Of a stretch of 64,000 nucleotides of DNA, positions 10,882-24,304 are shown in pieces. Both the position numbers and the translations under genes were made by a program. The stretch lies in contig OZ020592.1 in assembly GCA_963971535.1 (NCBI GenBank), forward strand, positions 57,934,873-57,998,872, given 5' to 3'. Under the pieces are notes generated by a model, which searched no databases, had not been told where the DNA came from, and saw nothing but the letters and a program-made list of their open reading frames with translations. The first letter of the stretch is position 1. The number at the start of each line of letters is the position of its first letter. Source of the DNA: Notolepis coatsorum (taxonomy: Eukaryota; Chordata; Actinopteri; Aulopiformes; Paralepididae).

Positions 10882-11163
10882 ATGTCTGAAGTGGGAAAGT
10901 GCGTGCCTCGCCACTCGCCAGCCAAGCAGTCATAGAAGTGTGAGCTCAACAGCCTCATCTATGCTTAAAAGGACTCAAGCTGAAAAAGCTGCCATGATGG
11001 CACGTCTTGCCAATTTAAATTAAAAAAAAAATGACCTTGAAAAACAACAAAGGGATTTGAAGCATGAATTGGAAGCCAGACAAGCAGCAATAAATCGTGA
11101 ATTGGAAAACAGACAAGCAGCATTAAATCGTGAATTGGAAAACAGACAAGCAGCATTAAATAC
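10882..11163 (+). pseudogene. Gag-like N-terminus of the BEL-like element, frameshifted
   Basis: Begins MSEVGKC at 10882; two frame breaks follow (near 10925 and in the A-run near 11025). Downstream comes a heptad-rich helix read as LEKQQRDLKHELEARQAAI, then a 12-residue unit RELENRQAALN repeated twice. Charged coiled coils of this kind are typical of BEL/Pao Gag N-termini. The frame is cut at 11163 by the inner LTR element and resumes at 20682 (AALNT-LQEELEMKT). Confidence 0.6.
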
Positions 11164-11471
11164 TGTGGTAAATTCCCAACATAGATCTCATGATTAACTA
11201 ATGTGTAGAAATACTTGGCCCTTAATTATAGTTCATATTGTGTCACTAAGACCTTGTGGTCTCTCCAGGAGGGCATTTGCATATAGTGGCAGCTGGGGTA
11301 ATACTTACTTCCCTTTAGGGGGTGGGTAAGAACAAAGGGCAGGAACATGTGTCTCCTTTTAGGAGACATCAAAGGCTCAACTGGTCTGCCAAAAGACAAT
11401 GATTAGGTCACATATTGATGGCTACATGTGACCATCAAAGGTCTGATTACACACACACACACACATAGACT

Positions 11472-11502
<31 letters not shown>

Positions 11503-20677: not shown

Positions 20678-21800
20678 ATACCTTACAAGAGGAGCTTGAG
20701 ATGAAAACTGTCATTGACGCTGCAGATGCAACATTAAGAACACTATCAAGTTGTGAGGAAAAGAAGAAGATGTCTGTTGAAGACAAAATATTTGTGGAAA
20801 TCATGTCGAACTCTACTGTGAGAAGTGATGGACATTACCAACTTGCACATACCAGTTATGCCCTATTAAAGTCTGCAGAGGACAACACAGATGCATTTTC
20901 AGCTGAAGCAGTTGACACTGTTCGAAGCAATTTCAATGAAAATGATTGTTTAAAGTCTGTTTCCACAGAAGAAGAAGCAGTGACAGAGGAAGTCGCTGTG
21001 TCAGACAGTGATGAAGGAGAAGAGGACAGTGATGAAGGAGATGAGAACAGCGATGAAGAAGAGGGCAGCGAGGATGAGGATGACTATTCGATCGTGCCTC
21101 ATATTCCCTCCAAGGAGTGGATTGTTCCTCAGACACTTCCTCAGAATGAACCAGATGACAATGGTGATGTGGGCGGTGAGGAAGAGGACGGCGTCGATGA
21201 TGAAGAAGAGGACGGCGTCGATGACGTCGATGATGAAGAAGTAGATGATGATGATGATGGGGACGGTGAGGAGGACGGCGTCGATGACGTCGATGATGAA
21301 GACGAGGAGGAGGACAGTGATAAAGAAGAGGAAGAAGAGGTAGATGAAGTGGACCAGTGGCCAAGCCATACTGCTACAAGCCATAAGACAAGATGTGCTG
21401 CCCCTGCTGGTCGAAGCCGGCATGTGCTGCCAACCTCTCATACTCAAGCCCCTCAGTCTCACACTGATCTACACCAAACAAGCGGAAGCAGCAACCTAGC
21501 ATCAGATGATGGTGAAGACAAGGAAGCTGATGATGGGGCAGAGGCAGAGGATGAAGACGGAGGAGAGGAAGGAGAGGAGGGGAACCAAAACACTGGATGG
21601 GCGGAAGCCATGGCTAAGATCCTGGGAAAGAAGACCCCAGAGAGTAAACCCTCCATCCTACTGAAGAACAAACAGCTAGACAAGCTGAAGGAGAAAAAGA
21701 AACGGGTTGACAAGAAGCGGACCTGGGAGATGATGTGTAGAGACAAACCTGACCTGGTCAAAGACAGAGAGATGGAACGAAATCTACAGAGAATTGCTAC
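20678..21800 (+). CDS. rrp15-like: Gag/Pol-like remnant fused to RRP15 (captured host gene), left part
   Basis: An open frame continues from the Gag coiled coil (LQEELEMKTVIDAADATLRT). It then passes MSVEDKIFVEIM and SDGHYQL, which resemble the segment preceding reverse transcriptase in BEL/Pao Pol. It then enters a long Asp/Glu-rich region. From GWAEAMAKILGKKTPESKPS onward it matches RRP15, the nucleolar protein needed for pre-60S ribosome maturation: TWEMMCRDKPDL and REMERNLQRIAT. There is no intron, so the source was probably spliced mRNA. The frame is interrupted after AT (21800) by an L2 LINE and resumes at 24089. The L2-derived residues after 21800 are not part of the gene. No restart near the RRP15 part is needed: the ATG at 20701 or the upstream Gag start would both read through. 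Confidence 0.85.
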
Positions 21801-24088
21801 ATTTACATTTACATTTAGTCATTTAGCTGACGCTTTTATCCAAAGCGACTTACAAGTTCTGTACGACAAGACAGCAAGAAGGGTACAACTCTATCAGCTG
21901 AGTAACAATGTTCATCAAGTGTTGCGTGTTACAGTGTAGGTTAGTTTATTAGGACAAGTGCATGACAGTAAGGTTAGTCATGGTTAGATTTTTTTTTTTT
22001 GTTTTTTTTTTTTATCATTTCAGATAATGGTTGAAGAAGTGAGTCTTTAGTCGACGGCGAAAGATTGGACGGGATTCGGCTGTCCTAACTGGGATGGGTA
22101 GTTCATTCCACCATTGTGGGGAAAGGACTGAGAATAGGCGGCTTCTCTTTGATGACCCTCCGGGAGCTTGGATAGGAGTAGGTCTGAGGCGGCCAGAAGA
22201 TGCAGAGCGTAGGGGTCTTGAGGGTGTGTAGTTAGAGACCATTGACCGGAGGTAGGCGGGAGCGGTTCCCTTTGCTGCACGGTATGCTAGGTCGAGGGCC
22301 TTGAAGCGGATACGTGCAGCAATGGGGAGCCAGTGCAGGTCCCTAAGAAGTGGGGTGACATGGGCCGACTTCAGTAGGTTTGATATCAGGCGGGCCGCTG
22401 CGTTTTGAATGAGTTGAAGAGGCTTGGTGGCAGTGGCCGGGAGGCCAGCTAGCAGTGCGTTGCAGTAGTCGAGGCGGGAGATGACTGTTGATTGGATGAG
22501 GAGTTGGGTGGCTTCTTTTGTCAGGAAGGGGCGTATCCTTCTGACGTTGCTCAGGAGGAATCTGCAGGTTCTGGTTGTCGCTGCGATGTGAGCAGAGAAG
22601 TTCAACTGGTCGTCGAGGACAACACCAAGGTTCTTGGCGGTCGGGGACGCGGTCACAGCTGCATTCTCGACTGTGATGGAGAGGTCGGTCAGGGGGGAGG
22701 ATTTGGCCGGCAGGTGGAGCAATTCTGTTTTGCTTAGGTTCAGTTTGAGGTGGTTGGTCGTCATCCAGGCGGAGATGTCGGACAGACAGGCCGAGATCCG
22801 CTCAGAGACGTGGATATCTGAGGGAGGGAAGGAGAGGAAGAGTTGAGTATCATCGGCATAACAATGATATGAGAAGCCATGAGACGTGATTATGTTACCC
22901 AGTGATTTAGTGTAGAGGGAGAAGAGAAGGGGTCCTAGGACCGAGCCCTGGGGGACACCCGTCCGGAGGGGGCGGGTGGCCGACAGAGTCCCTCTCCATG
23001 ACACTTGGTAGGAGCGGTCGTTGAGGTATGATGTCAGCCATGTCAGCGCAGATCCAGCCACTCCCATTCCTGCGAGGGCCGCGAGGAGGATCTGATGGTT
23101 GACTGTGTCGAAGGCTGCAGATAGATCTAGGAGAATCAGGACAGAGGAGAGGCCTTTCGCTTTTGCTAAGTGAAGTGCCTCTGTGACCGCAATGAGGGCC
23201 GTTTCTGTGGAGTGGCCAGTCCGGAAGCCAGACTGATTGGGGTCTAGGAGGTCATTCTGTAAGAGATAAGCAGTAAGTTGGTTGGATACAGCACGTTCAA
23301 GTGTTTTAGAAAGAAAGGAGAGAAGAGAGACAGGACGATAGTTGGCTATGACGGTGGGGTTCAGGGTTGGTTTTTTTATGAGGGGCGTGACTCTGGCTTG
23401 TTTTAGGGAGGTGGGGACCACCCCCGAGTTGAGTGAGGAGTTGATGGTTGCAGTTAGGAATGGGAGGATGTCCGGTGCTATGGTCTGGAGGAGTGGGGAG
23501 GGTAGCCGGTCCAGCTGGCATGTAGTCGGACGGTTCGACGTTACCAGTGTCAGGGTCTCGGCTTCTGTAATGGGAGAGAAAGATGACAGAGTGAAGGATG
23601 AGGTTCTCGATTCAGCGTTTGGAATGGGTGGGGGTTGGGAGAAGGAGCTGCGGATGTTCTCCACTTTTTCCTCAAAGAAGATCGCAAAGTCTTCGGCAGA
23701 AAAAGATGAGGGAGGAGGGGGTGGGGGGGGAGTGAGGAGGGAGGACATGGTAGCATGCAGTTTGCGAAGATTCTTGGCAGAGGCCTCGATCCTATGGTGA
23801 AAGAAAGAAGCTTTGGCATTAGTAATGGTTTTGGAGAATGTTAACAAGAGGTTGTGATATGTGTCGATGTCAGCAGTGAGGCGTGATTTTCTATACTTCC
23901 TCTCAGCCGCTCTCAGGACCTGTCTTTGTTCTCTCACTGCATCCGTCAGCCATGGACTGGGTGGGGAACGGCGGGCAGGTTTCTCAACGAGGGGACAGAG
24001 CTTGTCAAAGGAGGTTGCAAGGGCTGAGAGGAGGGTGGAGGTTGCCATCTCTGTGGGGAGAGCAGAGAAGGTGTCACTCAAAGGTAGA
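21801..24088 (-). mobile_element. L2 (Maui-type) LINE, 5'-truncated, inserted in the RRP15 copy
   Basis: Minus strand, with 5-bp duplication GCTAC (21796-21800 and 24089-24093). The tail is ATGTAA-type repeats after the familiar 'ggataaaagcgtcagctaaa' end. The coding part (22015-24088, about 690 codons, open) runs from just after the endonuclease through reverse transcriptase: NYRPVSLLSFLSKTLERAVS, SGFRTGHSTETALIAVTEAL, LDLSAAFDTVNHQILL, TGVPQGSVLGPLLFSLYTKS and CYADDTQLF, then the C-terminal domain ending FRRRLKTHFFNHYLK. The endonuclease is missing through 5' truncation. The open frame suggests a young insertion. Confidence 0.93.
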
Positions 24089-24304
24089 GCTACCAGGGGG
24101 GTGGTGCAGCTGTTCAACGCTGTGAAGAAACAAGCTTATCAAGTGAAGCTTATGGAAGCCCATGGTGTTACCGGGGCCGGTGATGGCCAAACACTTTTGA
24201 ATATGCCAGTTTCCAAGAGGAGAAACTACAAAAGACGACGGCGTAAGGAAACCTGGGGAAGAATGGCTGAGACCTCCCGACCGACTTACCGCCGACAGTC
24301 CTAA
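24089..24304 (+). CDS. rrp15-like: RRP15 fusion, right part with unrelated C-terminus
   Basis: After removing the L2 and one TSD copy, IAT joins RGVVQLFNAVKKQ, the next conserved RRP15 block. From AYQVKLMEAHGV onward the sequence no longer resembles RRP15. It ends with a very basic stretch SKRRNYKRRRRKETW, nuclear-localisation-like, and a TAA at 24302. The origin of the last 57 or so codons is unknown. Confidence 0.75.
   Translation, partial: ATRGVVQLFNAVKKQAYQVKLMEAHGVTGAGDGQTLLNMPVSKRRNYKRRRRKETWGRMAETSRPTYRRQS

Follow-up and report, generated by a model that had tools for sequence, protein, structure and literature searches.

Acutely transforming retroviruses carry a segment of host mRNA fused to Gag, are defective and depend on a helper. 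A process of long terminal repeat (LTR)-mediated retroposition in metazoans was reportedly described by Tan et al. in 2016. In animals including zebrafish, such retroposition uses template switching at short stretches of similarity to copy a host mRNA in between LTRs (PMC5408686, PMC8232201), and maize Bs1 is an LTR retroelement with segments of three host genes, for which cited titles mention a hybrid open reading frame (PMC13317346). That LTR elements can take up host mRNA is well established, and the mechanism is already known. Here we analyze an element in a window of 64,000 nucleotides (G000:C24:57934873-57998872; the window is the whole stretch of DNA under study) from the 3.42-Gb genome of Notolepis coatsorum. 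A sequence-only reading of this window had proposed that a BEL/Pao-like LTR element captured an RRP15 transcript and fused it in frame to its Gag coiled coil. Our results make it highly probable that the element is a non-autonomous LTR retrotransposon of BEL/Pao origin carrying a spliced segment of RRP15 mRNA transduced from the host, and they place it in a family that occupies at least 87 places in the genome.

The RRP15 identity of the cargo is well supported. Both halves into which a later insertion divides it in the window copy (L001) match the Pfam family Rrp15p (E 1.1e-6 for the first; 7.6e-6 for the second, whose 26.7 bits fall slightly short of the 27-bit cut-off), the first half finds human RRP15 in the PDB (entry 8fkp, 1e-23), and an open copy elsewhere in the genome (L008) carries the domain (PF07890) at E 4.4e-22. 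The proposed origin from host mRNA is borne out by the native rrp15 gene on contig C1771, which has GT...AG introns at KKQ/VDK and ATR/GVV; both are missing from the element piece, which lies between LTRs as intronless host exons, as in elements of the Bs1 kind. Removal of duplicate loci, which may have merged some true near-identical copies, reduced 66 matches to 55 copies, and in these the RRP15 sequence is 93.9-97.4% identical to the native exons. The captured piece is a fragment with both ends in the interior of native exons, the first and the third of those matched, and it lacks the RRP15 N-terminus and everything beyond the VVQLFNAV stretch. The closing AYQVK...RRQS stretch of the window frame is the element's own and not RRP15. 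In a domain protein tree compared against 120 RRP15-domain proteins, from which gap-rich ones were dropped, ten element copies and the native RRP15 of the host form a single clade (support 0.966), and the captured mRNA therefore came from the host lineage. Of the proteins listed, the nearest to the host protein itself are from fishes; in the 12 best matches, identity reaches at most 68% across some 250 residues, or 81% across 182.

The genome was searched with native fish RRP15 (P0001), yielding 95 matches with 142 of 270 candidates scored; copy counts are lower bounds. Four matches are exons of the native gene, and clustering of the remainder gives at least 87 places, distributed over 19 contigs. 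Twenty places (L009-L028), picked non-randomly from a list of matches obtained separately, were taken with their flanks, and RRP15 is present in all except L019. The LTR family adjoins RRP15 on at least one side in each of these 19 copies and on both sides in ten. Perfect ends with differing 5-bp target-site duplications (TSDs) occur in the window copy and in six of the 19 (L015, GTACC; L016, TGGTC; L017, GTTAG; L021, GTCAT; L026, CTATA; L027, GACAT). These six are 3.3-4.7 kb long, and LTR divergence in the seven elements is 0.004-0.018 (in the window copy, 97.6% identity and a Kimura two-parameter distance of 0.018). The 5' border of RRP15 is common to all 54 loci compared and the 3' border to 51 of them. 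Cargo with common borders and different TSDs has travelled together with its LTRs, again as in the Bs1 kind of element. The sequence-only reading had named a Gag-RRP15 junction recurring unchanged at separate loci as proof of mobilisation as a unit, and this is what the genome shows.

These data also bear on three other accounts of the cargo. Chance similarity or an assembly artefact, for which we found no supporting point, has a practically negligible probability given 94-97% identity to native exons in 55 copies, different TSDs and a spread over 19 contigs. A processed RRP15 pseudogene made by a long interspersed nuclear element (LINE) inside an LTR element, and carried along afterwards, could draw on machinery that has been active in the region, as its LINE insertions show. 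We nevertheless consider it very unlikely: the RRP15 piece begins and ends within native exons, and the poly(A) tail and TSD of its own that would have betrayed such a pseudogene were looked for at its borders, where neither is present. The flanks, moreover, are discontinuous across RRP15, with the gag linker leading to KVMRKQNK and the DUF1759 stretch in the related elements L077 and L078 and the tail joined to other sequence in L051 and L052, and the borders shared at 54 and 51 of 54 loci speak against a LINE retrocopy as well. Less credible still is a chimeric host gene that arose first and acquired LTR flanks later; long open chimeric frames do exist, but the only intron-bearing RRP15 matches seen in the genome search belong to the native gene on C1771, and the LTR family is present at all 19 RRP15 copies viewed with flanks.

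The BEL/Pao affinity proposed for the element held up. Judged by their sequence, its LTR, leader, coiled coil, linker and Pol fragment are descended from a BEL/Pao family of the same genome. BEL/Pao LTRs have TG...CA ends and a target duplication of 4-5 bp, and the window copy and six others have TGTAG...CTACA ends and duplications of 5 bp. The relative L077 has an open Gag-Pol frame of 2125 amino acids (aa), in which DUF1759 scores 2.9e-5 (24.5 bits against a cut-off of 25.4) and a zinc knuckle 0.0048, below cut-off; its identity to the window element is 77% in the LTR, 91% in the leader, 84% in the coiled coil and 91% in the Pol fragment. When an open RRP15 copy is compared by its Gag N-terminus, 62-71% matches likewise appear inside frames that are open over 1777-2133 aa, in elements bearing PF05380, L077 among them. 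The linker ...SSNLA runs on to KVMRKQNK and the Gag domain in L077, and to RRP15 in the RRP15 copies. The intermediate L078 retains Gag and the stretch up to the reverse transcriptase (RT), and after GHYQLA, where L077 proceeds toward RT, it has an unrelated sequence that we call cargo 2. Three RRP15-free relatives (L050-L052) contain more of cargo 2 followed by the same tail as the RRP15 copies; in L052 the LTRs are 0.67% apart and the TSD is CCCCT. No Pfam family of BEL/Pao Pol (RT, PF05380, integrase) was found in the RRP15 frames scanned (the window frames and L008), where Pol is represented only by a short fragment, and the element is therefore a non-autonomous derivative and not a full BEL/Pao member. 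Across the genome, where 150 of 21826 candidates were scored, an identical PF05380 score is seen repeatedly in BEL/Pao elements whose frames stay open over some 2000 aa or more, which gives the impression of recent activity.

Cargo 2 (L078:3938-4333; L051:3700-4248; window 20845-21006) takes the place of the RT side of Pol in an element derived from BEL/Pao and may be an older host capture. Part of it occurs in at least 150 places, in a genome search filled by its repeats with 150 of 347 candidates scored. No homologue was found among 2916 word-sharing candidates for residues 375-515 of the L052 frame, no match in the PDB for the 132-aa piece of L078 and only chance-level matches there for a piece of L051, and no Pfam family above cut-off in the frames scanned.

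The arrangement of these relatives suggests how the chimera could have been assembled. An RT reading from the 3' end would first copy the tail of a non-autonomous relative, switch at a common AAACA to a co-packaged RRP15 mRNA, and switch again at GCA to BEL gag RNA, whereby RRP15 would come to replace the Gag domain, the zinc knuckles and, by position, the protease region behind the coiled coil and linker. AAACA is common to the native exon, the chimera and the RRP15-free L051 and L052 (L050 differs), and GCA to the native exon, the chimera and BEL gag; short common sequences at the switch points agree with template switching, though weakly on their own, being short. The chimera, having neither RT nor integrase, would be copied in trans by BEL/Pao elements, a mode of mobilisation suggested because these enzymes are missing and yet the LTRs are young and the duplications clean. 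A Gag-like role may still be played by the coiled coil together with the basic tail.

Several observations weigh against a BEL/Pao-derived element that transduced RRP15 and spread as a unit. The L077 LTR is only 77% identical, so the proposed templates are relatives and not the actual parents; the microhomologies are short, at 5 and about 3 bases; and the mobilising partner is deduced from the common LTR, leader and ends. Among the flanked copies, no clean TSD was found in the other 13 with RRP15, most of which have an incomplete LTR, and the 3' border is not shown at three of the 54 loci (the LINE-cut window copy, L009 and L018). Finally, the amino acids of RRP15 show no conservation among copies: the ratio of replacing to silent polymorphism (pN/pS) is 0.96, and 1.2 in the domain, for the 48 copies that remain once the 7 frameshifted of 55 are left out, and 3 of these 48 have a stop codon.

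The in-frame fusion of the Gag coil to RRP15 applies to other copies; in the window copy, where it had been proposed, the coil part is open in no frame. In 5 of the 19 flanked copies, coiled coil, RRP15 and tail are joined in a single open frame, with lengths of 529, 546, 672, 770 and 839 aa; in L016 the end of the tail differs, and in L025 the frame starts within the coil. In L026 and L028, in-frame expansion has lengthened the Asp/Glu-rich tandem repeats between coil and RRP15 to several hundred residues, giving the 770- and 839-aa frames. In a shortened subfamily, the RRP15 match stops at native residue 117 in ten places, and in nine of them (Table 1) the tail follows with the same frame length.

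Such frames raise the question of whether RRP15 is useful to the element, with a Gag-like protein gaining RNA binding or nucleolar transport and being kept by selection. The five open frames speak for this, as does the continuity of shortened RRP15 and tail in one frame at nine places (judged from match coordinates and equal frame lengths), and so does the pattern of RRP15 indels, in which each non-triplet length is found in one or two copies and the commonest lengths (3, 24, 6 and 9) are all triplets. We still hold this possibility to be unlikely. The near-neutral codon ratio among copies does not support a kept RRP15 function; variants present in three or more copies comprise 4 silent to 17 replacing changes, no better than the neutral expectation of about 1 to 3; the shortened subfamily spread despite losing the second half of the piece; and acidic codon repeats yield triplet indels without selection. 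The ratio against the native gene is 0.26, a value in which the native branch is mixed and which cannot be credited to the element. By part, the ratio is 0.78 in the coil (10 copies, with 4 frameshifted left out), 1.33 in the Pol fragment and start of cargo 2 (14 copies), 0.54 in the linker (51 copies, 3 left out) and 0.92 in RRP15 (54 copies, 6 left out), and in 46 of 48 copies the tail has a length difference from the reference that is not a multiple of three. The open frames are explained equally well by the youth of the copies, and on these codon patterns RRP15 is most likely a passenger in the reading frame. A shade less probable again is the specific notion of a new type of Gag, in which a coiled coil-acidic-RRP15-basic protein would bind RNA or ride the pre-60S particle to the nucleolus in competition with host RRP15.

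The window copy from which the analysis started is a dead element. The element extends past the interval first assigned to the chimera (10882-24304): it spans 9735-35706, with two 499-bp LTRs (ends TGTAG...CTACA), the second of them at 35.2 kb. The two flanking LTRs, the nested gag-only element and the L2-like LINE, the last two with their TSDs, were recovered as described in the sequence-only reading (Table 1). The final 4 bases of the N-terminal coiled-coil segment are the TSD of the nested element, which is young (LTRs 99.6% identical) and has zinc knuckles in its 377-aa frame, the frame scanned. After the 5' LTR (10239-10260) there is no TGG-type primer-binding site (AAAGTTTGAAGG); six other RRP15 copies begin alike, and the RRP15-free L052 differs. 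Remains of a LINE and the L1-like insertion enclose a stretch at 27255-27676 that may derive from the element's old 3' untranslated part. Elsewhere in the window lie two self-inverted foldbacks of about 1 kb, at 2284-3283 and 50097-50960; each matches its own reverse complement, at 95.8% and 91.4% identity, respectively.

Table 1. Parts of the element and later insertions, in window positions, with the genomic places (G000) of the shortened subfamily in the last row
Feature	Position	Strand	Remarks
5' TSD ATCAT	9735..9739	.	Second copy at 35702-35706
5' LTR, TGTAG...CTACA	9740..10238	+	97.6% identity to 3' LTR
Leader	10239..10881	+	Positions 85-638 common to BEL/Pao relative L077 (91%) and intermediate L078 (96%)
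Gag N-terminal coiled coil, broken in window copy	10882..11163	+	84% DNA identity to L077 over positions 41-281
Nested gag-only LTR element, later, outside chimera proper	11164..20677	+	TSD ATAC; LTRs 99.6% identical; zinc knuckles
Gag coiled-coil stretch, end (LQEELEMKTVIDAADATLRTLSS)	20682..20751	+	97-98% to L077 and L078
BEL/Pao Pol fragment from just upstream of RT (CEEKKKMSVEDKIF...DGHYQL)	20752..20844	+	91% to matching stretch of L077/L078
Older cargo 2, start (AHTSYALLK...AVSD)	20845..21006	+	In L078 directly after GHYQLA; L077 there reads ALPFKQRE
Acidic stretch, IPSKEW-type repeats	21007..21351	+	
Gag linker DQWPSH...SSNL, to 5' RRP15 junction	21352..21498	+	Same linker in L077/L078, followed there by KVMRKQNK and DUF1759 stretch
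Captured RRP15: part of first matched native exon and second	21499..21800	+	Pfam Rrp15p; 95.6-95.9% DNA identity to native exons; intron absent
L2-like LINE, later, within RRP15	21801..24088	-	706-aa RT frame; TSD GCTAC
Captured RRP15: end of second exon and part of third matched native exon	24089..24132	+	Ends in AAACA, common to acceptor
Element tail (KQAYQVK...KRRNYKRRRRK...RRQS) and stop codon	24128..24304	+	Also occurs without RRP15 in L051, L052 and elsewhere
hAT-like element (presumably, from its end sequence and TSD length), later, in 3' untranslated part	24328..25316	.	8-bp TSD GTCACAAC
L1-like LINE, later, in 3' untranslated part	27695..35172	-	18-bp TSD; 1070-aa and 295-aa frames; named by eye
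Polypurine tract AATTAAGGGGCCGGTG	35187..35202	+	Also precedes 3' LTR in six other RRP15 copies
3' LTR	35203..35701	+	
3' TSD ATCAT	35702..35706	.	
Shortened-subfamily places	C7:9372527, 9389717, 9408642; C1:36840291, 172389469; C13:71324081; C30:110108958; C43:59155158; C44:42711522		

We found no report of RRP15 in any retroelement in literature on RRP15 with retrotransposons or retrocopies and on the wider topic, a weak negative given that subscription journals are mostly outside that coverage. Nor was the fusion seen in other species in 11 of the best 120 proteins (204-650 aa) of an RRP15-domain search with 243 at E <= 0.001; these 120 are mostly named RRP15-like or hypothetical and come from fishes and a few mammals. 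One candidate, P0118 from Aplochiton, has an odd N-terminus and was rejected as a fusion, having a full RRP15 C-terminus. The N-terminus of the element has no match among proteins of 291-925 aa, though unannotated copies could still exist. What appears to be new is the BEL/Pao descent, the RRP15 cargo, the spread of a single chimera in an animal to 87 or more places, and the presence in one genome of relatives from before and after the capture.

The family provides a well-resolved animal case of a housekeeping gene transduced by an LTR retrotransposon and amplified as one unit. One genome contains the native gene with its introns, a BEL/Pao relative whose Gag-Pol frame is long and open, an intermediate form bearing the older cargo, relatives that lack RRP15, and RRP15 copies of young age, so the order of the switches, the codon fate of the cargo and the reach of mobilisation in trans are testable largely by sequence. 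It also carries a warning for annotation, since an intronless frame resembling RRP15 may, in a genome of this kind, belong to a copy of the element.

Among known systems, acutely transforming retroviruses likewise join Gag to a segment of host mRNA, are defective and need a helper; the RRP15 element differs from them in its housekeeping cargo and its many genomic copies, with no envelope or infection shown. From BEL/Pao elements it has its LTR, leader, Gag coiled coil, linker and Pol fragment, all traceable to such an element in the same genome, whereas the RRP15 frames scanned hold no RT, PF05380 or integrase family. LTR-mediated retroposition resembles it in placing host mRNA between LTRs by template switching; its product, as those papers describe it, is a retrocopy of the parental gene, whereas the RRP15 chimera is an amplifying family with one fixed junction. 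Bs1, finally, is alike in being an LTR element that has taken up host gene segments, but it is a plant element with other host genes, whereas the family described here is BEL/Pao-derived and animal, and carries RRP15 at at least 87 places.

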